Assembly (NCBI RefSeq): GCF_004346685.1
Contig: NZ_SMCO01000001.1
Coordinates: forward strand, 434,001-498,000
DNA from: Sulfurirhabdus autotrophica
GTDB taxonomy: Bacteria > Pseudomonadota > Gammaproteobacteria > Burkholderiales > SMCO01
Direction: 5' to 3'
DNA length: 64,000 nucleotides
Below are positions 21,852 through 58,838 of the stretch, one piece after another; position 1 is the stretch's first letter, and each line of letters begins with the position of its first letter. Made by a program: the position numbers and the translations under genes. The notes beneath the pieces were generated by a model. It ran no database searches. It worked only from the letters and a program-made list of their open reading frames with translations, and was not told where the DNA came from.

Positions 21852-22877
21852 TTACATTAAATATTTTTTAATCAGAATTTCAGCAATCTGTACACTATTA
21901 AGCGCCGCCCCTTTACGCACATTGTCTGAAACCACCCATAAATCAAGGCCCATAGGATGTGAGATATCCTCGCGAATGCGTCCTACAAACACGGGATCAT
22001 TATCAGCGGCTTCGGTAAATGGCGTTGGATAACCACCAGGCACACGCTCGTCATACACAGCTACACCAGGTGCATTTTCCAGCAAAGTGGTAGCGGCTTC
22101 AGCAGAAATTTTCTTACATGTTTCAATATGCACGGCTTCTGAATGCCCAAAAAATACGGGTACACGCACCGCTGTAGGATTAACCATCACTGTTTTATCT
22201 TCGAGAATTTTTTGGGTTTCCCACACCATTTTCATTTCTTCTCGGGTGTAGCCGTTTTCCATAAACACATCAATTTGTGGCAGTACATTGAATGCTATCT
22301 GTTTGGGATAAATATGGGGATCATGAGGATTCTGGTTAAAAATCCCCATTGTTTGCTGAGCCAATTCTTCAATCGCTTCTTTTCCTGTGCCTGAAACTGC
22401 CTGATAAGTGGCCACATTAATACGGGCAATACCCACAGCATCATAAATTGGCTTCAGTGCAACCAGCATTTGAATCGTCGAACAATTCGGGTTGGCAATA
22501 ATACCGCGATTTTTATACTGCCCGATGGCGTGCGCATTAACTTCAGGAATAACCAATGGCACATCGTCTTCATAACGAAATTCAGAAGTGTTATCAATTA
22601 CCACGCAACCTGCAGCCACTGCCTTGGGCGCATATTCTTTAGAAACGCTATCACCAGCCGAAAACAAGCCAATTTGTACTTTTGAAAAGTCAAACTCGGC
22701 AACATCCAGCACAGTTATCTCTTCATCACGAAAATGGATTGTTTCTCCAGCTGAGTGACTTGATGCCAATAGAAAAAGATTACGTACAGGGAAAGACCGG
22801 CTTTCCAGAATTTCGATTATCGCATTGCCGACTGTACCAGTCGCACCCAGAACGGCGACATCGTATTGTTTGGTCAT
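21852..22877 (-). CDS. aspartate-semialdehyde dehydrogenase, second paralogue (Usg position, Gram-positive-type)
   Basis: 341 aa, NADP-dependent reduction of aspartyl phosphate. Rossmann motif VLGATGTVGNAI near residues 9-20. The catalytic cysteine is kept in ANPNCSTIQMLVALKP (Cys132) and the segment TYQAVSGTGKEAIEEL follows. It occupies the position of usg between asd and fimV; unlike enterobacterial Usg it retains the nucleophile, so it is probably a working enzyme. It diverges strongly from the other paralogue just upstream and looks closer to the type found in Gram-positive bacteria. It could be annotated asd2 or usg; I leave the symbol empty. Confidence 0.88.
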   Translation of the reverse strand: MTKQYDVAVLGATGTVGNAIIEILESRSFPVRNLFLLASSHSAGETIHFRDEEITVLDVAEFDFSKVQIGLFSAGDSVSKEYAPKAVAAGCVVIDNTSEFRYEDDVPLVIPEVNAHAIGQYKNRGIIANPNCSTIQMLVALKPIYDAVGIARINVATYQAVSGTGKEAIEELAQQTMGIFNQNPHDPHIYPKQIAFNVLPQIDVFMENGYTREEMKMVWETQKILEDKTVMVNPTAVRVPVFFGHSEAVHIETCKKISAEAATTLLENAPGVAVYDERVPGGYPTPFTEAADNDPVFVGRIREDISHPMGLDLWVVSDNVRKGAALNSVQIAEILIKKYLM

Positions 22878-22990: not shown

Positions 22991-24103
22991 TTAAGCTTCT
23001 ATCAAAATACGCAACATGCGACGCAAGGGTTCTGCAGCACCCCACAAAAGTTGATCGCCTACAGTAAAGGCAGAAAGATACTGCGGCCCCATGGTCAATT
23101 TGCGCATTCGCCCAACAGGCACGTTAAGTGTACCGGTCACTGCGGCTGGCGTGAGTGCTTTCATTGTCAGCTCACGATCATTTGGTATTACCTTCACCCA
23201 CTGGTTGTGACTGGCGATGATATCGTTGATTTCATCCAGGGGAATATCTTTGGTCATTTTGATGGTTAATGCCTGGCTATGGCAACGCATTGCACCAATA
23301 CGCACACACAAACCATCAATCGCAATCGGATTGGCGCTACTACCAAGAATCTTATTTGCTTCAACCTGTGCTTTCCATTCTTCTTTGCTCTGACCTGACT
23401 CAAGCTGAACATCAATCCATGGAATCAACGACCCGGCCAATGGAACAGGCCAGGCTTCGACAGGATAGCGATCGGAGTTGATAAAGTCAGCTACTTTTTT
23501 GTCGATTTCAAGAATAGCCGAAGCGGGATCATCAAGCAGCGATTTTACTTCACCGTTGATTGCGCCCATTTGCTGTATCAATTCACGCATATTACGTGCA
23601 CCAGCGCCAGAAGCCGCCTGATATGTCATAGGGCTGATCCACTCAACCAGTCCCTTATCAAACAAACCACCTATCGCCATCAACATGAGACTAACCGTGC
23701 AATTACCACCAACATAGGTTTTTACATTACTAGCAAGCCCTTTCTTGATCACATCTTTATTCACTGGATCAAGAATGATGATCGCCTCTTCTTTCATGCG
23801 TAGTGTTGAAGCAGCATCAATCCAGTAGCCTTTCCAGCCAGAATTTCTCAGTTGGGGGTAAATCTCACTGGTGTAATCTCCACCCTGACAAGAAATGATG
23901 GCGTCCATTGCCTTGAGTTCTACGATATTTTTGGCATCTTTGAGTGGAGGAACATCCTTTCCAATATTGGGACCTTTTCCGCCAGGATTGGAGGTTGTGA
24001 AAAAAACCGGATCAATCAGGTCGAAATCTTTCTCCTGCTGCATGCGCTGCATGAGTACCGAACCAACCATACCACGCCATCCAATCAGACCTACTCGCAT
24101 CAT
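22991..24103 (-). CDS. asd: aspartate-semialdehyde dehydrogenase
   Basis: 370 aa, of the proteobacterial type, for lysine, threonine, methionine and diaminopimelate synthesis. N-terminal Rossmann [18 protein letters not shown]; catalytic Cys135 in [32 protein letters not shown] next to it; His in the segment [16 protein letters not shown] near residue 277. Second in the order leuB-asd-asd2-fimV. The 113-base gap to the paralogue contains an imperfect 12-bp hairpin at 22913-22940. Confidence 0.95.
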
Positions 24104-48142: not shown

Positions 48143-49234
48143 ATGAAAATCGCAACAGGTCTCGCAACAGGTCAAATAGCCAGCCCGGATTTAGCTAAAC
48201 AAGCCGTGGCCCAAGCCATGGAAAAAGCAGAACTTGAAATCGCTGCAAGCGTTCTCCTATTTCTTACCCCTGATTTTGCCCGTGACCCTCAGCCTTCACT
48301 TTTAGCAGCGTCTCGCGCTAGCAATTGCACGCACATTGTGGGCTGTTCTGCTGTCGGTATTTTCACAGAAGATGACTGGGTGCTGGATTCTCCAGCAGCA
48401 GCTGCTATGGTTTTTGGAGATGGCATCAGTTTATTACCTGTTCACTCACCTCAATCTGACGACCTGATACTCACACTGGCTGCACCGAATGCCATCAACA
48501 CGAACTGGCTTTCTGAACCAGGGATACGTTATGGGGGGGTATCTGGCGATGCCACAGGACAGGGCCCATTCAAGGTCTGGTGTGGGGGCAAGGAAGTTGC
48601 TAACGGTCGATGTGAAACATTGATTAGTGGTGCGAGCGGCGCCATTGGCATTTCACAAGGAATACGTGCTCTAACACGTCCGCAAGAGGTTACTCAGGTT
48701 AATGGGTATGATGTGCAATCTCTTGGCAACCAACCTGCACTCAACACACTCATACGGGAACTCCCCTTAGAAGTACGTGAACTGGAAAGAATTCCCCTGC
48801 ATCTGATTATGGCAGGCATTACATTTGGGGAACCATCTACCGCGATTGCTGAAGGCAGATTCCATCTGACTCCTATCATATCCACCAACACTGATGACCG
48901 ATCCATTACCCTTTCCAAGCGTATTGATGTGGGCGAAAAACTTTTCTGGGCCTTCCGCCAACCCCTTGCAGCTGAACGCGATATGCGAATGGCCATTGAC
49001 CGCATGCAAGAACAATTAACAAGTGCACCGGATTTTGGCTTGCTCTTTCCTTGCACAGGGCGAGGCCCTTACTTCTATGGTGGCATAGACAGAGATCTTG
49101 AGCTAACCAAGCAGCGATTTCCAAGCATGCCCATCATCGGATTTTACGGCAACGGTGAAATAGGCCCATTAAACAATAACAATCATTTATTCCAGTACGC
49201 CGCCATTCTGGGATTATTTTCAGGCAATGTTTAA
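48143..49234 (+). CDS. FIST-domain sensory protein
   Basis: 363 aa. FIST_N region (residues about 25-220; THIVGCSAVGIFTEDDWV) and FIST_C region (about 225-350) with FPCTGRGPYFYGG and GFYGNGEIGPLNN typical of this family. FIST proteins are thought to bind small ligands, possibly amino acids, in signalling. No kinase or output domain is fused. Overlaps the next gene by 8 bases. Confidence 0.85.
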   Translation: MKIATGLATGQIASPDLAKQAVAQAMEKAELEIAASVLLFLTPDFARDPQPSLLAASRASNCTHIVGCSAVGIFTEDDWVLDSPAAAAMVFGDGISLLPVHSPQSDDLILTLAAPNAINTNWLSEPGIRYGGVSGDATGQGPFKVWCGGKEVANGRCETLISGASGAIGISQGIRALTRPQEVTQVNGYDVQSLGNQPALNTLIRELPLEVRELERIPLHLIMAGITFGEPSTAIAEGRFHLTPIISTNTDDRSITLSKRIDVGEKLFWAFRQPLAAERDMRMAIDRMQEQLTSAPDFGLLFPCTGRGPYFYGGIDRDLELTKQRFPSMPIIGFYGNGEIGPLNNNNHLFQYAAILGLFSGNV

Positions 49235-49664
49235 TCCTTCCAGAGAGGAAGCACGCCGCTTCTTCTTCGACACTTGGCGCAAATATCAAGTTAAAGAGTC
49301 TTTATCTGGCTTAGAAGGCACAGCGTTGGATATTATCCTGCAACACCCGGAATATCACGCTATGCTTTCAGATCCCGAAAAACACATAGACCGAGATTTT
49401 TTGCCTGAATTTGGTGAAACCAATCCCTTCTTGCATATGAGCATGCATCTGGCAATAGAAGAGCAGCTTTCTATTGATCAGCCTCAGGGTATTCGAAGTC
49501 ACTACCAAAACCTGCTTAAAAAGGGCAGCACAGCCCACGATGCTCAACACATCGCCATGGATTGCCTGGCAGAAATGATCTGGCAGGCTCAGCGCAATAA
49601 TAGCGCACCGGATGCTTCTGTATATCTGAATTGCCTGACAACAAAAGTACATCGCAATAGCTAA
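49227..49664 (+). CDS. DUF1841 family protein
   Basis: 145-aa cytoplasmic protein of unknown function. The family pattern is seen: FNPSREEARRFFFDTW at the N terminus, NPFLHMSMHLAIEEQLSIDQP in the middle and AQHIAMDCLAEMIWQAQR at the C terminus; the His and Glu residues in the central helix are suggestive of metal binding. Translationally coupled to the FIST gene through an 8-base overlap. Confidence 0.85.
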   Translation: MFNPSREEARRFFFDTWRKYQVKESLSGLEGTALDIILQHPEYHAMLSDPEKHIDRDFLPEFGETNPFLHMSMHLAIEEQLSIDQPQGIRSHYQNLLKKGSTAHDAQHIAMDCLAEMIWQAQRNNSAPDASVYLNCLTTKVHRNS

Positions 49665-49780
49665 ATTAATCATAGCGTTTGCAACTCTGCGTAAAATATA
49701 AGAAAATTGCAGGTTTTTTACGAGCCTTCCTGTTTTGCCATATTACAACAGGGAGCAAACTCAATTTTCAGGAATCACCC

Positions 49781-51568
49781 GTGAAAGATATTCTCGCTTG
49801 TAATCTCTGGCTTTATAAAGTCTTCCCCTTTCTTCGCTGGTGGCCGATGGTCACAAAGGAATCCAGTCGCGCAGATCTGATGGCCGGTTTGACTGGTGCC
49901 ATGATTGTGCTGCCGCAGGGCGTTGCATTTGCCACGATTGCCGGAATGCCGCCAGAATACGGTTTATATGCAGCCATGATTCCCGCCATTATTGGCGCAC
50001 TATTCGGTTCAAGCTGGCATCTGGTTTCCGGGCCAACGACTGCCATTTCCATCGCAGTCTTTGCATCTGTCAGTCCCCATGCGGCTCCTGGTTCTCCCGA
50101 TTTCATCAGTCTGGTGCTTACGCTGACTTTCATGGTTGGTCTATTCGAACTGATTCTTGGCATGGCCCGCATGGGTGCGTTAGTAAACTTTATCTCTCAT
50201 ACAGTGGTGATTGGCTTTACCGCTGGCGCTGCAATTCTGATTGCATCCAGCCAAATCAAGCACTTCTTTGGCATCAGTATCCCTCGCGGCACACCATTCC
50301 ACGAAACCATTCACCAATTATTCCTTCAAATTGGAGATATTAATCTTTACGTCACTGGTGTTGGTTTAATTACGCTCGTTTCAGGTATTTTGTTCAAGAA
50401 ATTTTATTCAAAATTTCCCTATATGATTGCGGCAATGATTATTGGGAGTCTGGTAGCAGTCATTCTGAATACTTTTTTTGGCGGTATTGATGCGACACAA
50501 ATAAAAACGGTTGGCGCTCTACCCTCAGGCTTACCACCACTTTCTCACCCAGACCTTTCGCTTACCTCACTTCAGCATGCTTTCTTTCCAGCATTGGTAG
50601 TAACAATGCTAGCACTGACAGAAGCGGTATCCATTTCCCGTGCAATTGCAGTCAAATCTGAACAGCGAATAGATGGTAATCAAGAGTTTATTGGACAGGG
50701 CCTGTCGAACATTTTTGGCAGTTTTTTCTCTGGTTATGCCTCTAGTGGCTCATTCAATCGTAGCGGTGTGAATTACGCCTCCGGTGCACGTACCCCCCTT
50801 GCTGCAGTGTTTGCATCTATATTTTTGATCATCATCCTGCTACTGGTCGCACCACTAGCCGCTTATTTACCCACTGCCGCCATGGCGGGAATTCTGTTCC
50901 TGGTCGCATGGGGGCTCATCGACTTTCATCATATTGCTTCCATTCTCAAAACCAGCCGTGTTGAAACCACCATTCTTGCGGTTACATTCATCGGTACGCT
51001 GATCGATCTTGAAAAGGGCATTTTCTTCGGTATAACACTGTCACTTGCTCTTTACCTCTATCGCACATCTCGCCCGACCGTGCGTGATATCGTACCGGAC
51101 ACCTCTAATGAAAAACGCAAATTTTCAACCCCGCGCGAAGGTATGCATGAGTGCCCTCAACTAAAAACTGTACGTATTGACGGTTCAATCTTTTTTGGAG
51201 CAGTTAATCACATCCAGACTTCCTTGCAACAAATAGACGAGTACAATCCACAACATAAACATGTGCTTGTGGTTGCAGATGGCATCAACTTTGTAGATCT
51301 TGCCGGTGGTGAAATGTTGGTTCAGGAAGCCAAGCGACGCAAAAAAATGAACGGTGGACTGTATTTTAAAGGAGTAAAAGAAGGCGCCTGCGAAATGATC
51401 AAAAAAGGGGGATATATCAAGGATATTGGCAATGACAATATTTTTAAATCCAAAACCACTGCAATTACCACCATCTACAGCAAGCTAGATTCAGAAATCT
51501 GCAGAAACTGTACAGTGCGAATTTTCAGAGAATGTCACCAATCTTTGCCTAATGGTGAACCAAGATAA
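49781..51568 (+). CDS. SulP family anion transporter with STAS domain (copy 1)
   Basis: 595 aa from the GTG at 49781, 8 bases after AGGA. The identical leader layout and identical length in copy 2 (57051-58838) support this start; a longer in-frame reading to 49679 is rejected. Domains: transmembrane SulP core (about residues 30-420; LPQGVAFATIAGMPPEYGLYA, FFSGYASSGSFNRSGVNYASGARTP in two pieces) and a C-terminal STAS domain (about 460-560, RIDGSIFFGAVNH, INFVDLAGGEML). A cysteine tail follows: CRNC then C (LDSEICRNCTVRIFRECHQ). SulP proteins carry sulfate, bicarbonate or other anions; substrate unknown. Confidence 0.92.
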   Translation: MKDILACNLWLYKVFPFLRWWPMVTKESSRADLMAGLTGAMIVLPQGVAFATIAGMPPEYGLYAAMIPAIIGALFGSSWHLVSGPTTAISIAVFASVSPHAAPGSPDFISLVLTLTFMVGLFELILGMARMGALVNFISHTVVIGFTAGAAILIASSQIKHFFGISIPRGTPFHETIHQLFLQIGDINLYVTGVGLITLVSGILFKKFYSKFPYMIAAMIIGSLVAVILNTFFGGIDATQIKTVGALPSGLPPLSHPDLSLTSLQHAFFPALVVTMLALTEAVSISRAIAVKSEQRIDGNQEFIGQGLSNIFGSFFSGYASSGSFNRSGVNYASGARTPLAAVFASIFLIIILLLVAPLAAYLPTAAMAGILFLVAWGLIDFHHIASILKTSRVETTILAVTFIGTLIDLEKGIFFGITLSLALYLYRTSRPTVRDIVPDTSNEKRKFSTPREGMHECPQLKTVRIDGSIFFGAVNHIQTSLQQIDEYNPQHKHVLVVADGINFVDLAGGEMLVQEAKRRKKMNGGLYFKGVKEGACEMIKKGGYIKDIGNDNIFKSKTTAITTIYSKLDSEICRNCTVRIFRECHQSLPNGEPR

Positions 51569-51732: not shown

Positions 51733-52809
51733 TCAATCGGTTGCCATCGCTTCTTGCAACACTTTTGTCTGACGCTTGTGATCACGCATACCCTGCCAAA
51801 GAGCAAACAACACAATGCCTGCCCCCAGCAAAAGCGCCAGTATCATCACACCAAGACTGATATTTTTCAATAGTGCCATATTCTCATCCGCCATCGGCGC
51901 AATCATGTGAAGTTGGGAGAGGTAAACAGGGATAACAAATGCCCGGCTAAATAACACAGTGATCATGATGACGCCCATTACCACTTTAATCATGTAGGGC
52001 TTCACATAAGTAGTACCAATTGCCCCCAAATGGATACCGAACAAAGATCCGGCAAGAATAATCATAGCCAATCGAATATCTACATACCCGCCCCAGGCAA
52101 ACTTGATTGTGCCCCCTACCCCCATCACAAAAGCGATTACCAGTTCTGTTGCTGAAGCCATCATGCTTGGCACGCCTAGTACATACATCATTGAAGGTAC
52201 ACCGATAAAACCGCCAACAGCGATGGTTGCCGCCAGCAACCCAGTTGCAAAGCCCAAAGGAATGGTGAACAGAACAGAGATTTTTGCCTTGATGCTGGGG
52301 AAATAAACCATGGTGCCTGGAATGTAAACCGATTGAACCCATTTTGCCAATGATCCTTTTTTTTCCTCCTCGTCTGTTGCTCCTGAACGATATATCTTGA
52401 TGGCATCTCGCATGACGTAACCGCCTACAACAGCAAGCACTATCACAAATGCCACGCTTACATAAAGATTAGAACCCGCATCACCAAACGCCTTTTTAAT
52501 GGATTCCTGAATATGCGCCCCATATAACACACCGGCTTCTGCCGAAGCACCCATAACCAGTCCAAGTTTCAGATCTACCTGCCCATATTTCGCACGTTTT
52601 AACGCGCCAACCAATGCCTTGGGAAACTTATGGCACATATTACTTGCCACCGCCACGATACCTGGGACTCCCAAGCTCATCATTGCCGGCGTCAACACAA
52701 AAGCACCGCCAGAGCCAATAAACCCACTCACCATTCCTCCAACAAAACCTACAATTAACAGGAATAAGACATTCGTCACATTTAGATCAATAAAATTAAG
52801 ACCTTCCAC
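51733..52809 (-). CDS. TSUP (TauE/SafE) family transporter, large form
   Basis: 358 aa with eight or more hydrophobic segments and a short basic cytoplasmic tail (residues about 340-358). Two family repeats: GMVSGFIGSGGAFVLTPAMMSLGVP (N-terminal half, residues about 24-48) and AATIAVGGFIGVPSMMYVLGVP (C-terminal half). A charged loop near residue 145 (SGATDEEEKKG) separates the halves. It probably moves sulfite, sulfate-like or sulfonate anions. Last gene of the minus-strand cluster that begins at the sigma-54 promoter near 53788. Confidence 0.85.
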   Translation of the reverse strand: MEGLNFIDLNVTNVLFLLIVGFVGGMVSGFIGSGGAFVLTPAMMSLGVPGIVAVASNMCHKFPKALVGALKRAKYGQVDLKLGLVMGASAEAGVLYGAHIQESIKKAFGDAGSNLYVSVAFVIVLAVVGGYVMRDAIKIYRSGATDEEEKKGSLAKWVQSVYIPGTMVYFPSIKAKISVLFTIPLGFATGLLAATIAVGGFIGVPSMMYVLGVPSMMASATELVIAFVMGVGGTIKFAWGGYVDIRLAMIILAGSLFGIHLGAIGTTYVKPYMIKVVMGVIMITVLFSRAFVIPVYLSQLHMIAPMADENMALLKNISLGVMILALLLGAGIVLFALWQGMRDHKRQTKVLQEAMATD

Positions 52810-52845: not shown

Positions 52846-53079
52846 CTATTTTTTTGCTTTAATTCCTAGCACATCCCAAAACTCGCTCGTAAATGCGCCA
52901 TGCGCAAATGAGATGACGAATGCAATGGTAATTGGAATCACAAATGCCCAATGCCCATGAGAAGTTATGTCAAGCACCTGATTTTCATTTATAAATAACA
53001 CCCCGTATAGACCGGTAGAGAGCATCCCCAAACCAAACAGTTTCACGATTTTTTTTGTATTTTTTACCTTTTCCATCAT
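52846..53079 (-). CDS. small membrane protein, unknown
   Basis: 77 aa from an ATG at 53079 (MMEKVKNTKKIVKLFG); ATG 53076 and a GTG at 53115 are alternatives, with AGGGGG lying just before the two ATGs. Two hydrophobic segments (residues about 14-32 and 41-60), basic N terminus and C-terminal KAKK. No family recognised. Sits between the UspA-like and TSUP genes, likely in one transcript; an accessory role to the transporter is inference. Confidence 0.65.
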   Translation of the reverse strand: MMEKVKNTKKIVKLFGLGMLSTGLYGVLFINENQVLDITSHGHWAFVIPITIAFVISFAHGAFTSEFWDVLGIKAKK

Positions 53080-53092
53080 TCCCCCTGAATTT

Positions 53093-53497
53093 TCATTTTT
53101 TAAAACTGTCACCACCCGTTATTACCAATGGACAACCAACCTTACCCCAATAATCACGTGTCTTCTTTCCAGGCCATCCAGCTGGTGGAGGCATGACTAC
53201 AAACAAGATGCTTTTAAAATGATTGACATAATCAGCCACTTCAGCATCAAAGCTTCCTACCTTTTTCACCAACCTGTAAAAAACTTTTTCACTTTCCAAA
53301 ACCAGTAAAAAATTTTCCAGAGCAGTGTCTTTCACGCGGCAATTTGTAACGCATAAAATATCCAAGCTGGCAGACATCCGCTTACACAGACTCAACGCTG
53401 CAAGAAATGATTCACGGTTACAGGTAGCATTACCCACAGCCAGCAATATCTTTCTTTCAGGGCATGAACCAGCCGCAGGGTTGGCAAGCTGCCCCAC
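53093..53497 (-). CDS. UspA-like (universal stress protein) domain protein
   Basis: 134 aa from GTG at 53497, 6 bases after GAGG. The alpha/beta pattern fits UspA: first strand KILLAVGNATCNRESFLAALSLC, second LDILCVTNC, later ILFVVMPPP and VGCPLVITGG. The nucleotide-binding GxxGxxG(S/T) signature of ATP-binding UspAs is not visible, so it is probably a non-ATP-binding relative. Its end overlaps the longest reading of the next gene by 23 bases. Confidence 0.6.
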   Translation of the reverse strand: MGQLANPAAGSCPERKILLAVGNATCNRESFLAALSLCKRMSASLDILCVTNCRVKDTALENFLLVLESEKVFYRLVKKVGSFDAEVADYVNHFKSILFVVMPPPAGWPGKKTRDYWGKVGCPLVITGGDSFKK

Positions 53498-53545
53498 TAA
53501 TACCTCATACTTCGCTTAGTTTGCATGCAACAAATTATCATTTTT

Positions 53546-53731
53546 CTAATGTGTATCAGCCATACCGTTTGAAGGCATTCCGCTGACAGGCACGTTCACT
53601 TTTATTTCATCCACCTTTTCTTTTGAAGCGTGGTTTTCATTCAAAATTTGCCTAACCGCATCAAAATTTCCTGCTTCTGCATAAGACATCGCCGTAAACA
53701 TCCTTCCCAATTTGCTGAATATTTTGTTCAT
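53546..53731 (-). CDS. small hypothetical protein, first gene of the sigma-54 cluster
   Basis: 61 aa from ATG 53731, five bases after GGAG (an in-frame GTG at 53737 overlaps the Shine-Dalgarno). Amphipathic N-terminal helix (MNKIFSKLGRMFTAMSYAEAG, read in two parts) and a hydrophilic rest; no family recognised. The central AEAGNFDAVRQIL resembles short TPR-like helices, but the match is weak. Transcribed divergently from the sensor kinase gene. Confidence 0.65.
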   Translation of the reverse strand: MNKIFSKLGRMFTAMSYAEAGNFDAVRQILNENHASKEKVDEIKVNVPVSGMPSNGMADTH

Positions 53732-53787
53732 ATCCACTCCAAATGAAATATCTAAAAAAACATGCGTCGTTTACTACCGTCTTATTA

Positions 53788-53803
53788 AGCAGTTACCGTG
53801 CCA
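53788..53803 (-). promoter_or_regulatory. sigma-54 promoter driving the minus-strand transport cluster
   Basis: Minus-strand TGGCACGGTAACTGCT matches the -24/-12 consensus TGGCACG-N4-TTGCW at every conserved position except one T (C at the first T of TTGC); GG and GC have the required spacing. It predicts +1 near 53777, about 46 bases before the ATG at 53731. Confidence 0.8.
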
Positions 53804-53966
53804 CATTAATATTTTTACCAACCAATTGTTATATATACATTTTTCTTAAACTATTCTCTTTCAATCAAACAGAACTACTATTTCATATTGCAACAATCAT
53901 CAACCAATAAAACACTAACTACTATCAATATATTGATTAATATAATAATTATTTAAAATTACCAAT

Positions 53967-54006
53967 GTTGCATATTTATGCGACATGTTGCTATTTGCAA
54001 TGCAAA
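53967..54006. promoter_or_regulatory. candidate enhancer sites for the adjacent NtrC-type regulator
   Basis: Two TTGCA-based inverted repeats: GTTGCAT-ATTT-ATGCGAC (53967-53984) and TTTGCA-A-TGCAAA (53994-54006). A further ATTGCAACAAT lies at 53887-53897. They are roughly 110 to 230 bases upstream of the predicted sigma-54 start, the usual distance for enhancer-binding sites, in otherwise AT-rich DNA. Binding is inference. Confidence 0.4.
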
Positions 54007-54016
54007 GATTTAGCAT

Positions 54017-55513
54017 ATGCACATGAAAATCCAATCATCCTTAAGGCAAAAAATTACATTTGGCTATTACGGTTATTACGCCATGGCAGCCTTGATCATT
54101 GGATTATCACTATTTACTTTTATGGAACTAAGGCTTATAGAGGGAAAGATTCACTCTGGTACAAGAATTACTGAATTTTTTGACGTCACACTGGAAATCA
54201 GAAGATTTGAAAAGAATTATTTCCTGTACCGACAACTAGCTGATTATTGGGAAAATGTAGGCTATATCGAAAAAGCTCAATCACTATTAGACAAACACGG
54301 AAATGATTTTGAATCACTGACCTCACACAAGAACATCACCAACCTGCGTTCGAATTTAGTCAATTACCGCCTGCTCTTAGAACAGTATTCGCAACACGCG
54401 CTTTTATCTCCACCACAATTGGAGCAGCTTGAAGCCAGGATTCGTAACATCGGCAGAGCGATCACTATTGAAGGCGAACATATCGCCAACTCGGAAAGGT
54501 TAATGCTTCAAAAATCCCTGGATAGAGCCCGGACTTTTTTCTTTGGATATTTAGCACTGATAGCACTGGTGATGATTGCGATAGGCATGACACTGTCAAA
54601 AATGGTGGTTCGCCCCTTGCGTCACATGGAAACCTGCATAAATGGTTTAACTGGTGGCCGACTTGAAAAGCTTAAAATTGATTCCAATGAGCATGAAATC
54701 ATTTCAATTACCCACGCTTTTAATCACATGATTGAAGAACTTGAAAAACGGCAACAGTGCATCACCCGTTCCGAAAAACTAGCTTCGATGGGGACACTCC
54801 TTTCCGGCGTAGCACATGAACTGAACAACCCGATATCCAATATATCCAGCTCCTGTCAGATTCTCCAGGAAGAACTGGGACACGCAGACATCGTTTTCCA
54901 GAAAGAAATGCTTGAGCAAATTGATAATCAGACTGACCGTGCACGCATCATCGTCAGGTCATTACTTGATTTCGCCCGGGATCGTGAATTTAAACATTCC
55001 GACATTGCACTGGATAAGTTGGTAGCGGAAACCATTCGTTTCAGCAAAGGCATGATACCGCCAAACGTGACTCTCACCAGCGACATCCCTGAAAACCTGA
55101 TGATTACGGCTGACTGCCAAAGACTGCAGCAAGCTTTGCTCAACTTGCTTCAAAACTGCCTGGATGCATTGGGTGGAAAAGGAAAAATCCACATAATGGC
55201 AGAGAAACGGTTTATCACCGCAAACGATAAAAATGACATTACGTTTCATGGCAGATGTGAAGCGCACATAGAAGTGGTCGATTTAGAAATCCGGGACAAC
55301 GGAACAGGAATTGCTGATGACGTTCTGCCCCGCATTTTTGATCCGTTCTTTACAACAAAAGATGTAGGACAAGGTTCCGGGCTAGGCCTTTCTATCGTGC
55401 ATGACATTATTGAACAACATCACGGTTGCATTGCCGTGAGTTCTGCAAGCGGTGGCGGCGCCACGTTCACAATTCGCCTTCCCGTACAGATATCCACTTT
55501 ACAACCTAATTAA
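54017..55513 (+). CDS. sensor histidine kinase (NtrB/ZraS-like class)
   Basis: 498 aa inner-membrane kinase. TM1 residues about 21-38, periplasmic helical sensor domain (about 40-170), TM2 about 174-195, HAMP (about 196-250), HisKA with phospho-acceptor His267 in GVAHELNNPISNIS, then HATPase_c with NLLQNCLDALGG (N box), DNGTGIADD (G1) and GSGLGLSIVHDII (G2). Six bases before the response regulator, so one operon. The periplasmic domain gives no clue to the ligand. Weak Shine-Dalgarno. Confidence 0.92.
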   Translation: MHMKIQSSLRQKITFGYYGYYAMAALIIGLSLFTFMELRLIEGKIHSGTRITEFFDVTLEIRRFEKNYFLYRQLADYWENVGYIEKAQSLLDKHGNDFESLTSHKNITNLRSNLVNYRLLLEQYSQHALLSPPQLEQLEARIRNIGRAITIEGEHIANSERLMLQKSLDRARTFFFGYLALIALVMIAIGMTLSKMVVRPLRHMETCINGLTGGRLEKLKIDSNEHEIISITHAFNHMIEELEKRQQCITRSEKLASMGTLLSGVAHELNNPISNISSSCQILQEELGHADIVFQKEMLEQIDNQTDRARIIVRSLLDFARDREFKHSDIALDKLVAETIRFSKGMIPPNVTLTSDIPENLMITADCQRLQQALLNLLQNCLDALGGKGKIHIMAEKRFITANDKNDITFHGRCEAHIEVVDLEIRDNGTGIADDVLPRIFDPFFTTKDVGQGSGLGLSIVHDIIEQHHGCIAVSSASGGGATFTIRLPVQISTLQPN

Positions 55514-55519
55514 TTCAGC

Positions 55520-56890
55520 ATGAATATCATGACAACACCAGGTACGCTTCTTATTGTGGACGATGAAAAAGCCGCACTTAAAAACCTTGAACACATAATG
55601 AAAAAAGAAGGATATGAAGTCACAACGACTCAAAGCGGTCCCAATGCGCTGACATTACTCGACACTCAAAATTTCGACGTCGTTTTGACAGATTTACGTA
55701 TGGAGAAAGTCGATGGCATGCAGATCCTTCAAAAATGCCGCGCAATTTCACGGAATACTGAAGTCATCATGATCACCGGTTTTGCCACACTGGAATCAGC
55801 TGTAGATGCCATGAAATATGGCGCCTTTCATTACATATCCAAACCGTTTCGTCTGGATGAAGTAAGAAAAGTTGTCGCTGAAGCCATAGAAAAGGTACGC
55901 CTTAAAAAGGAAAACCAGGCGCTTAAATCGCAAATTGATCTTTATCATGGAAAGGTAAAAATCGTAACGCAAAACCCCACCATTCAGCGCATGCTTGAAA
56001 CCGCAAGACAGGTTGCGCCCACAGACTGCAATATCATTATTACAGGGGAAAGCGGCACAGGAAAGGAATTATTCGCACGATACCTTCATGACAATAGCGA
56101 AAGACAAAATGGGCTGTTCCTGGCCGTTAACTGTGGCGCCTTTAATGAAGAATTGCTCTCAAATGAACTGTTCGGCCATGACAAGGGCGCATTTACCGGC
56201 GCAAGTTCGAGCAAAAAGGGTCTCATAGAGGCCGCCTCTGGCGGAACACTATTTCTTGATGAAATTACTGAAATGTCCCCTTCCATGCAAGTCAAATTAC
56301 TTCGTGTAATACAGGAAAGGGAAATCCTTCATCTGGGTGGTACCGAGCCGATAAAAGTCGATGTACGTTTTATTGCCGCCTCTAACCGGGATTTGCAAAC
56401 AGCCATGAAAAGTGGGGAATTTCGTCAGGATTTATACTTTCGCCTGAACGTAGTTAACCTCTCCATCCCTTCGCTCTCAGAGCGATTGGAAGACATTCCC
56501 ATGCTCAGCCTGCACTTTTTAAAAAAATATGCCTCTTTGATGAAAAAGGAAGTTACAGAAATCTCCAAAGAAGCAATGGAACTTCTGATTGGATATGACT
56601 TCCCTGGTAACGTACGAGAACTTGAAAACATTATTGAGCGTGGCGTCGCCATTACCCATAGTGACACTATTGAAAGCACACACCTGCCAGATGATTTGAG
56701 AGAAATGACTTTCCGCACATTTCGCAAAAAAAATGGACGTATCCTGCCTCTGGAAGAGCAAGAGAAAGATTATATACTGTGGGTATTAAGTGAATCCATG
56801 GGGAATCAGACCGTGGCAGCACAGGCCCTTGGCATTGATCGGGTTTCACTATGGCGCAAGCTAAAAAAATATCAGATAGCGCCAATATAA
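55520..56890 (+). CDS. NtrC-family sigma-54-dependent response regulator
   Basis: 456 aa. Receiver domain (residues about 9-120) with phospho-acceptor Asp58 in VVLTDLRMEKVDG and Lys108 in ISKPF. AAA+ domain: Walker A GESGTGKE (176-183), sigma-54 contact loop GAFTGA (223-228), Walker B GGTLFLDEI. C-terminal Fis-type helix-turn-helix (about 428-452; NQTVAAQALGIDRVSLWRKL). Pairs with the kinase six bases upstream. Most likely target is the sigma-54 promoter at 53788-53803, and possibly the SulP genes on either side. Confidence 0.95.
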   Translation: MNIMTTPGTLLIVDDEKAALKNLEHIMKKEGYEVTTTQSGPNALTLLDTQNFDVVLTDLRMEKVDGMQILQKCRAISRNTEVIMITGFATLESAVDAMKYGAFHYISKPFRLDEVRKVVAEAIEKVRLKKENQALKSQIDLYHGKVKIVTQNPTIQRMLETARQVAPTDCNIIITGESGTGKELFARYLHDNSERQNGLFLAVNCGAFNEELLSNELFGHDKGAFTGASSSKKGLIEAASGGTLFLDEITEMSPSMQVKLLRVIQEREILHLGGTEPIKVDVRFIAASNRDLQTAMKSGEFRQDLYFRLNVVNLSIPSLSERLEDIPMLSLHFLKKYASLMKKEVTEISKEAMELLIGYDFPGNVRELENIIERGVAITHSDTIESTHLPDDLREMTFRTFRKKNGRILPLEEQEKDYILWVLSESMGNQTVAAQALGIDRVSLWRKLKKYQIAPI

Positions 56891-57011
56891 TGACTCATAC
56901 TACCTATAGCTTAAAGTGAGTCGGTCTGATTACACACCTTGCTTCTAGCCACAGCATGGTTTGCAAGAACTTCATTTTTAAACGATAATTATTGCTTATT
57001 GAAATAGACTA

Positions 57012-57026
57012 GTTGCAATTTGCAAC
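57012..57026. promoter_or_regulatory. palindrome upstream of SulP copy 2
   Basis: GTTGCAATTTGCAAC, a perfect 7-1-7 inverted repeat 24 bases before the GTG start of copy 2. It shares the TTGCAA core with repeats in the kinase/cluster intergenic region, though spacing differs. May be an operator for the same regulator or a separate repressor site. Confidence 0.4.
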
Positions 57027-57050
57027 ACATTTAACCTTGGAATTACACCT

Positions 57051-58838
57051 GTGAAGTCACTTCTCGCATGCAACCTCTGGCTCTATAAAGTTTTCCCGTT
57101 TCTGCGATGGTGGCCTATGGTCAACAAAGAGACTGCCCGTTCCGATTTAATGTCGGGATTGACTGGCGCCCTCATTGTATTACCCCAAGGTGTCGCTTTC
57201 GCGACTATTGCAGGCATGCCGCCAGAATATGGTTTATATGCTGCGATGGTTCCTGCAGTGATAGGAGCATTATTCGGCTCCAGCTGGCACCTTGTCTCAG
57301 GGCCTACGACGGCCATTTCCATTGCTGTGTTTGCATCCGTCAGCCCATATGCTCATGCAGGAACCCCCGAATTTATCAGCCTGGTACTCACCCTGACTTT
57401 TCTGGTCGGATTATTTGAACTATTAATGGGTCTGGCAAAACTGGGCGCGCTAGTCAACTTTATCTCACACACAGTGGTTATTGGCTTTACTGCTGGCGCG
57501 GCAATCCTCATTGCTTCCAGTCAAATCAAACACTTTTTTGGCATTCATATTGAACGCGGCACAGCTTTCTACGAAACAATCCATCAATTATTTCTGCAAT
57601 TTAATGATATTAATATCTATGTCACTATTGTCGGCGCTCTAACATTGATATCAGGTATTCTGGTTAAAAAATTCGTACCAAAATTCCCTTATATGATTGC
57701 GGCCATGATTATCGGCAGTATCGCAGCGCTCATTATTAACCAGTTTGCCGGGGGTATTGACGCTACCCATATAGTCACAGTCGGGGCACTTCCTTCTGGA
57801 TTACCCCCCTTGTCTCACCCTGACTTGTCCATCCATTCAATTCAACAGGTATTCTTTCCTGCACTCGTTGTCACTATGCTGGCATTGACTGAAGCCGTTT
57901 CTATATCCCGAGCTATATCTGTCCGTTCCGAGCAGCGTATTGATGGCAATCAGGAGTTTATTGGCCAAGGCTTGTCTAATATGTTTGGCAGTTTTTTTTC
58001 AGGATACGCTTCAAGCGGATCGTTCAACCGAAGTGGCGTTAACTATGCTTCTGGCGCCAGAACCCCGCTTGCAGCAGTATTCGCATCATTTTTCCTGTTA
58101 CTGATATTACTGTTGGTAGCACCACTCGCTGCTTATCTGCCCACAGCAGCAATGGCTGGCATCCTCTTCCTGGTTTCCTGGGGTCTGATTGACTTTCATC
58201 ACATGTCATCCATCATGAAAACAAGCCGATCTGAAACGGCTATTTTGTGGGTCACACTGATTGGTACGCTAATCAATCTGGAAAAGGGGATATTCTTTGG
58301 CATCATTTTGTCATTAATCACTTATCTTTACCGTACTTCTCGCCCAAGCATAACTGCATTCGTGCCCGATACTGAAGAAGGAAGTTATCATTTCATTCCT
58401 GCCGACAACATGCCTGAGTGCCCGCAACTGAAAATTGCCCGTGTGAATGGCTCAATATTTTTCGGTGCAGTTAATCATGTGCAACAGCATCTCCAGCACT
58501 TTGATGAAGAAAATCCACAAGCCAAGCATGTCCTCATTCTCTCCAGTGGAATCAATTTCGTTGATATCGCTGGAGCAGAAATGCTTACCCAAGAAGCAAA
58601 ACGTCGTAAAAAAATGGGTGGGGGACTTTACTTCTATCGTGTTAAAGAAAAGGTTTACCAGTTGTTTAATAAGGGACATTACATTGACGATATTGGCAAA
58701 GAGAATATCTTTGAGGCAAAAATGCACCCAATTTCTAACATTTATCCCAAATTAGATTCTGAAGTTTGTCGTACTTGCAAAGTAAGAATATTCAATGCGT
58801 GTAAAGTTGCGTTGCCTAACGGAGAAGCTTTGCAGTAA
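57051..58838 (+). CDS. SulP family anion transporter with STAS domain (copy 2)
   Basis: 595 aa, start GTG at 57051 preceded by TTGGAATTACACCT, nearly the same leader as copy 1. The two proteins look close to 80% identical by eye from LACNLWLYKVFPFLRWW to the end. Transmembrane core (LPQGVAFATIAGMPPEYGLYA, GASGARTP-type motif), STAS domain (VNGSIFFGAVNHVQ, INFVDIAGAEML) and the cysteine tail (CRTC then C). It lies 160 bases after the NtrC-type regulator on the same strand. Divergence from copy 1 is spread along the whole gene, so the duplication is not recent. Confidence 0.92.
   Translation: MKSLLACNLWLYKVFPFLRWWPMVNKETARSDLMSGLTGALIVLPQGVAFATIAGMPPEYGLYAAMVPAVIGALFGSSWHLVSGPTTAISIAVFASVSPYAHAGTPEFISLVLTLTFLVGLFELLMGLAKLGALVNFISHTVVIGFTAGAAILIASSQIKHFFGIHIERGTAFYETIHQLFLQFNDINIYVTIVGALTLISGILVKKFVPKFPYMIAAMIIGSIAALIINQFAGGIDATHIVTVGALPSGLPPLSHPDLSIHSIQQVFFPALVVTMLALTEAVSISRAISVRSEQRIDGNQEFIGQGLSNMFGSFFSGYASSGSFNRSGVNYASGARTPLAAVFASFFLLLILLLVAPLAAYLPTAAMAGILFLVSWGLIDFHHMSSIMKTSRSETAILWVTLIGTLINLEKGIFFGIILSLITYLYRTSRPSITAFVPDTEEGSYHFIPADNMPECPQLKIARVNGSIFFGAVNHVQQHLQHFDEENPQAKHVLILSSGINFVDIAGAEMLTQEAKRRKKMGGGLYFYRVKEKVYQLFNKGHYIDDIGKENIFEAKMHPISNIYPKLDSEVCRTCKVRIFNACKVALPNGEALQ

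Follow-up and report, generated by a model that had tools for sequence, protein, structure and literature searches.

A conserved sigma-54 promoter and a predicted two-component transporter switch in Sulfurirhabdus autotrophica, whose rpoN gene appears interrupted

The described systems closest to the locus presented here come from Desulfovibrio vulgaris, E. coli and Acidithiobacillus ferrooxidans. According to the available parts of the published accounts, D. vulgaris has nine sigma-54 operons that include TSUP or PSE transporters whose substrates are not known (PMC4641369), and the TSUP operon DVU0132-DVU0133 is bound by the regulators DVU0110 and DVUA0057 (PMC4641369; PMC3333781). The available text on E. 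coli glnA describes NtrC as activating the sigma-54 promoter glnAP2 and repressing the sigma-70 promoters glnAP1 and glnAP3 (PMC4287178). In the accessible portion of the work on A. ferrooxidans, the tetH operon (AFE_0026/0027) is presented with a two-component pair by a mapped sigma-54 promoter and a predicted IHF site (PMC5506826).

The locus analysed here lies in a 64,000-nucleotide stretch of the S. autotrophica genome (the window), to which coordinates refer unless a contig or related locus is named; related loci carry L numbers. As in the DVU0110 and DVUA0057 regulons, a two-component enhancer-binding regulator is predicted to control a TSUP operon, while the parts of the D. vulgaris account available to us mention neither a USP-like gene nor a SulP operator nor a divergent geometry (PMC4641369). 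As at glnA, one NtrC-type regulator is predicted to combine sigma-54 activation with sigma-70 repression (PMC4287178); the glnA promoters, as that text presents them, serve one gene, whereas those of the window would serve two transporter units flanking the regulator genes. The tetH locus offers a chemolithotroph two-component pair beside a sigma-54 promoter and an IHF site, both of which are predicted in the window, although its target is described as tetrathionate hydrolase and not a transporter (PMC5506826). Neither this kinase/regulator family nor its palindrome turned up as the subject of a paper in a search of the open-access literature, with most subscription papers outside its scope.

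The -24/-12 promoter and its conservation

A sequence-only reading of the window had proposed TGGCACGGTAACTGCT (53788..53803, minus strand) as a near-perfect sigma-54 promoter with a leader of about 46 bases, a Shine-Dalgarno sequence, an ATG and an adjoining GAFTGA regulator, and each of these elements was found in the sequence. Read from 53803 to 53788, the 16-mer has GG-N10-GC spacing and boxes resembling TGGCAC and TTGC, with a single deviation from the consensus TGGCACG-N4-TTGCW, a C for the first T of TTGC. Transcription would begin ∼12 nt past the GC, near 53777, which is 46 nt 5′ of the ATG at 53731, and a GGAG lies upstream of this ATG. The GAFTGA motif is present in the regulator (55520..56890), and a consensus scan of the divergent region (53500-54060) returned no sigma-70-like promoter, against a shuffle mean of 3.6.

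Judged by sequence quality, the promoter has company. It is the single exact match to TGGCACGN5TGCW in the window, where five more sites carry one mismatch and 65 carry two or fewer, compared with 41.4 ± 6.8 in shuffles. Across the genome (3,861,719 bases in 59 contigs) there are 15 exact matches, where ∼2.8 would be expected from the window base composition, and 264 sites with at most one mismatch, compared with 72 for the reversed pattern. Only seven of the 15 exact matches lie outside every ORF of at least 70 aa. The genome is thus clearly enriched in sigma-54-like sites, and the site at 53788-53803 is not singled out by sequence alone, having 14 equally strict counterparts. These counts, and the location of several matches inside ORFs, are what a fortuitous origin would lean on, the site then being a single near-match among the genome's several hundred, placed fortuitously in an AT-rich intergenic region.

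The case against chance comes from related loci, in which the site is conserved at the same position. Relatives were found by the small protein encoded by the first operon gene (10 of 300 genomes of the order, own genome included) and by the kinase (9 of 100 relatives and 14 of 369 genomes of the class, own genome included in each), and five named loci (L111-L114 and L121) were added from a genome-collection search, among at least 80 matching loci listed. The resulting set of 30 comprises 21 loci from the kinase search, three from the small-protein search (L058, L062 and L066), the five named loci and the window; 26 of the 29 non-window loci were reached via the neighbouring histidine kinase and three via the small protein. 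L115 was left out as it was taken to be the same record as L108, and L116-L120 and L122-L190 were excluded for low kinase identity, a partial match, or an orthologous regulator not having been sought, while L098 was kept although its kinase frame holds one TAG. We scanned the 400 bp 5′ of each kinase (195 bp in L105) with a hand-weighted consensus score, rather than a trained matrix, with a maximum of 21 and a threshold of 18.

A site reaching the threshold and pointing away from the kinase occurs in 24 of the 30 loci (the window and 23 of the 29 others, which were picked irrespective of the site), with shuffles averaging 0.96 and never exceeding 4, and the opposite strand reaches 18 in just two. 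L097 has the identical 16-mer 5′ of a USP-like/membrane/TSUP operon. In an alignment of the six closest loci, the -24/-12 boxes form one of three clearly conserved blocks, the other two being palindromes. No site scoring at least 18 was found 5′ of the kinase in L100, L110, L111, L112, L114 or L121, which includes four of the five named distant loci, and L121 nonetheless carries a TSUP gene whose product is 75% identical to that of the window (83% in L061 and 61% in L097). A good site is also missing from all five small-protein paralogues that do not sit beside the kinase (L059, L060, the second L062 copy, L064 and L065). This pattern leads us to reject a chance match as the origin of the promoter, an origin that we regard as exceedingly improbable. 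The earlier judgement that chance was unlikely is strengthened by this conservation and weakened in one respect, that the sequence is not unique in the genome, while the assignment to the small-protein/TSUP operon agrees with the site in 24 of 30 loci, the palindrome they share and its absence without an adjacent kinase and regulator.

Operon genes, regulator and activator palindromes

The predicted operon runs on the minus strand from a small protein (53546..53731, 61 aa from the ATG), which has no Pfam or NCBIfam match, through a 134-aa protein (53093..53497) and an 89-aa membrane-protein-like ORF (52846..53115), kept beside TSUP in L061, L097 and L121, to a TSUP/TauE family transporter (51733..52809; PF01925, E 7.2e-37, 127.8 bits against a cut-off of 32.6). 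No Pfam profile, that of USP included, matches the 134-aa protein at E up to 1. The AlphaFold2 model of this protein is modest (mean pLDDT 66.7), and with that reservation its best Foldseek match is the USP domain of KdpD (E 6.3e-4, TM 0.55). Eight of the ten best-ranked PDB matches of this modest model are titled universal stress protein, and one of its matches is TeaD, described as a TRAP-transporter USP. The protein probably has a universal-stress-protein fold, as judged from this predicted structure. In eight loci (L096, L101-L104, L106, L107 and L109) a single protein of 173-205 aa begins with a similar short motif followed by a second domain, and L108 has a 162-aa form. The small protein and the 134-aa protein are likely, rather than proven, to be the two halves of this longer protein (53093-53731), because identity is low.

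The cargo of the divergent operon varies between loci, and was counted only where a profile or BLAST match agreed, as the simple ORF caller gave out-of-frame ORFs in GC-rich loci (e.g., a 649-aa ORF in L094). TSUP is found in the window, L061 and L097, SulP in others (e.g., L058, L063, L104 and L106-L109), CitMHS in L102 and DUF599 in L094 and L095. FIST, DUF1841 and SulP genes adjoin at 48143-51568 of the window, and the first two are again found close to the locus in L058, L059 and L092. In two loci a complex-I/Hyf-like cluster follows TSUP or SulP on the operon strand (L061:7029-15616 and L063:8832-18277). Elsewhere in the window, two different aspartate-semialdehyde-dehydrogenase-like ORFs, named by eye, stand in tandem (21852-22877 and 22991-24103). 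Inorganic-carbon uptake was considered as the operon function and set aside, as the clues go no further than hints. Two RuBisCO large-chain genes were found, and a carbonic-anhydrase-like gene is preceded by an exact sigma-54 site (L009, contig C8:63652-63667 of this genome), with an activator gene nearby (C8:61284). In L061 and L063 a hexapeptide protein accompanies the complex-I/Hyf-like cluster behind the TSUP or SulP gene, and L113 gives a sub-threshold carbonic-anhydrase match (E 0.0026).

On the plus strand, the sensor histidine kinase (54017..55513) contains HisKA and HATPase_c domains, with motifs conserved in a 10-sequence alignment, and the response regulator (55520..56890) has a receiver, a Sigma54_activat (AAA+) domain with GAFTGA and a Fis-type HTH, the architecture of an NtrC-type enhancer-binding regulator. 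The best NCBIfam model for the regulator is AtoC and the second ZraR, while the kinase is matched best by AtoS and fourth by ZraS, all from E. coli AtoSC and ZraSR. The scores are far below the equivalog cut-offs and fall short of orthology (456.2 against 714 bits for AtoC, 398.9 against 760 for ZraR and 188 against 646 for AtoS).

A de novo palindrome-constrained search of the 24 promoter-bearing regions yielded TGTTGCA-N3-TGCAACA, with a log-likelihood of 215 compared with 23 and 29 for two shuffled sets. Within three mismatches the palindrome is present in 27 of the 30 loci, most often twice, where shuffles average 0.41 and reach 2 at most; at that limit it is absent from L105, L112 and L114. 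Its recurrence suggests that it is likely the activator site of the NtrC-type regulator; the binding site of NtrC itself differs from it. Both copies in the window are imperfect. The predicted proximal site, TATTTCATATTGCAACA (53879..53895), identified by motif search and alignment, has two mismatches and lies 75 bp upstream of the -24 box, and the predicted distal site, TGTTGCTATTTGCAATG (53986..54002), has three mismatches and lies 107 bp from the proximal site and 14 bp before the kinase start. These palindromes, at 53879 and 53986, would supply the upstream enhancer sites of a sigma-54 promoter. The two copies are spaced by 101-109 bp in the window, L058, L061, L062, L063 and L066, the second copy in L063 being weak, with five mismatches.

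Between the two sites lies an exact match to the IHF consensus, WATCAANNNNTTR (53923..53935, plus). Exact IHF matches total 11 in the 24 regions, compared with 0.35 in shuffles, and a common IHF site across loci was rejected, as such matches occur in some regions only and many have none. A further dyad of 22 bases, ATGTTGCATATTTATGCGACAT (53965..53986), overlaps the edge of the distal site and appears terminator-like in a scan. Genome-wide, the palindrome occurs 338 times per strand with at most three mismatches, compared with 108 per strand for the reversed pattern. A regulon defined from all of these matches was rejected, since palindromes are naturally over-represented relative to their own reversal, and few of the 19 best loci (L191-L209) have a sigma-54-like site at a suitable distance.

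A predicted second output at SulP2

Downstream of the regulator gene lies SulP2 (57051..58838, plus), a SulP-family transporter that scores above the TIGR00815 cut-off. It is preceded by a sigma-70-like promoter, TTGCAA-17-GATAAT (56961..56989, plus), and by a pair of predicted operators. Operator 1 (56990..57006, four mismatches) lies immediately 3′ of the -10 box, and operator 2 (57011..57027, one mismatch) ends 23 bp before the SulP2 start. A palindrome pair spaced by exactly 21 bp is found between the regulator and SulP in five of the seven loci with SulP at that position (the window, L061, L062, L063 and L092), with summed mismatches of 4-6 compared with a shuffled minimum of 10-11. L096 has one copy after the regulator and L097 a 26-bp pair. 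With at most three mismatches, the palindrome follows the regulator in eight of 13 loci (the window, L061, L062, L063, L092, L094, L096 and L097) and was not found there in L058, L066, L093, L095 or L099. SulP genes that do not lie behind the regulator, namely SulP1 of the window and the second SulP of L062, have no 21-bp pair, and the SulP gene of L059, likewise placed, has a single copy with three mismatches.

Relative to the -10 hexamer of the best sigma-70-like promoter, the pair begins 0, 1, 1, 1 and 11 bp past it in the five loci. From these paired palindromes just 3′ of a sigma-70-like -10 box, together with the palindromes upstream of the divergent promoter, it follows that the regulator probably activates the divergent operon via sigma-54 and represses SulP2. 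The regulator could instead only activate, with the SulP2 pair acting as a second enhancer for a distant or unrecognised sigma-54 promoter and not as an operator. Sigma-54 enhancers do work over distance and from downstream positions, which lends this arrangement some plausibility, but no -24/-12 site scoring at least 17 was found on the SulP2 strand between 56700 and 57400, and the position of the pair just past the sigma-70-like -10 box recurs in all five loci. Activation alone is, in our judgement, quite unlikely, and repression of SulP2 is the reading that we carry forward. The sequence-only reading had predicted which genes the two-component system controls; for the divergent operon this gains comparative support, while SulP2 as a probable repressed target, and the rpoN insertion described below, had been overlooked.

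An interrupted rpoN and the proposed circuit

The genome contains 12 strong Sigma54_activat genes (E 4.4e-45 or better) and a single sigma-54 N-terminal domain. The DNA-binding domain of this rpoN is split between the ends of two contigs, C31 carrying positions 3-115 and C39 positions 111-159 (L031 and L032). The first half ends after a few foreign residues, while the second half is still open and carries ARRTIAKYRES, which we take to be the RpoN box. The RpoN box is needed for -24 recognition. The element adjoining both halves is seen by its left end at six places and its right end at five, every one of them identical to its counterparts and falling where a contig ends, and it bears inverted repeats and a TA at every border, as in IS630-like elements. 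The simplest reading is that rpoN was cut before the RpoN box by one multicopy IS630-like insertion, as read from contig ends rather than within one contig; the family name is deduced from these borders, the interior of the element not having been recovered, and a search of the plasmid collection gave no copy of it. No uninterrupted rpoN copy was found in the genome contigs, which bears on the activity of the promoter and not on its identity, and the Sigma54_DBD match is in one piece in all 24 relatives checked.

As the only rpoN found is interrupted, the promoter is probably silent in the sequenced strain while being real by ancestry, and a transcript start at 53777 is not expected in this strain unless the insertion is not fixed. 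The persistent enrichment of intact sigma-54-like sites suggests that the event is recent, and a mixed population or a recent culture event is possible. The promoter might still be active if the interruption is a variant that arose in culture or in assembly, or if the truncated sigma-54 is functional enough. That the remnant past the element is open and keeps the RpoN box, that the copies of the element share identical ends, a sign of a recent event, and that sigma-54-like sites remain strongly over-represented all accord with continued activity. Set against this, the two contigs that carry the rpoN halves both end in the element, the gene was not found uninterrupted elsewhere in the contigs, and the missing part includes the box on which -24 recognition depends. 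On balance continued activity seems rather unlikely, and we retain the silent promoter as the better account. The promoter claim holds and is extended, and any prediction for this strain is to be tempered by the broken rpoN.

From the sites, genes, conservation and gene interruption read in the sequence, we infer a circuit of binding, activation, repression and silence, which as a whole we hold to be highly probable. The adjacent kinase would sense a signal and phosphorylate the NtrC-type regulator, which would bind the two upstream copies of TGTTGCA-N3-TGCAACA, with IHF probably bending the DNA. The bound regulator would open sigma-54 polymerase at the 53788-53803 promoter, from which four genes would be transcribed as one operon, those of the small protein, the USP-like protein, the small membrane protein and the TSUP transporter. 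On the other side, the regulator would occupy the 21-bp-spaced pair over the start of the SulP2 sigma-70 promoter and repress SulP2. A single signal may thereby put one anion transporter in place of another, similar to the way NtrC acts at the glnA sigma-54 and sigma-70 promoters, with the output in the sequenced genome probably locked off by the insertion in the only rpoN found.

A single promoter guess has in this way become a testable circuit with named predicted binding sites, belonging to a sensor-regulator family that spans from the window's own order to Desulfocapsa, and TSUP and SulP transporters gain a common regulatory handle. The broken rpoN calls for care: a missing predicted transcript in this strain would not disprove the promoter. 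More tentatively, and with somewhat more doubt than confidence, the locus may exemplify a sigma-54 two-component switch, widespread yet undescribed, by which anion transporters (TSUP or SulP) are exchanged through two opposite outputs and which is frozen here by a recent insertion in the sole rpoN. If so, one regulator and one palindrome would govern the handling of perhaps an inorganic-carbon or sulfur anion in lithoautotrophs, and this genome would be full of intact but orphaned sigma-54 promoters. It is possibly a natural case of recent sigma-54 loss in which the promoters have not yet decayed.
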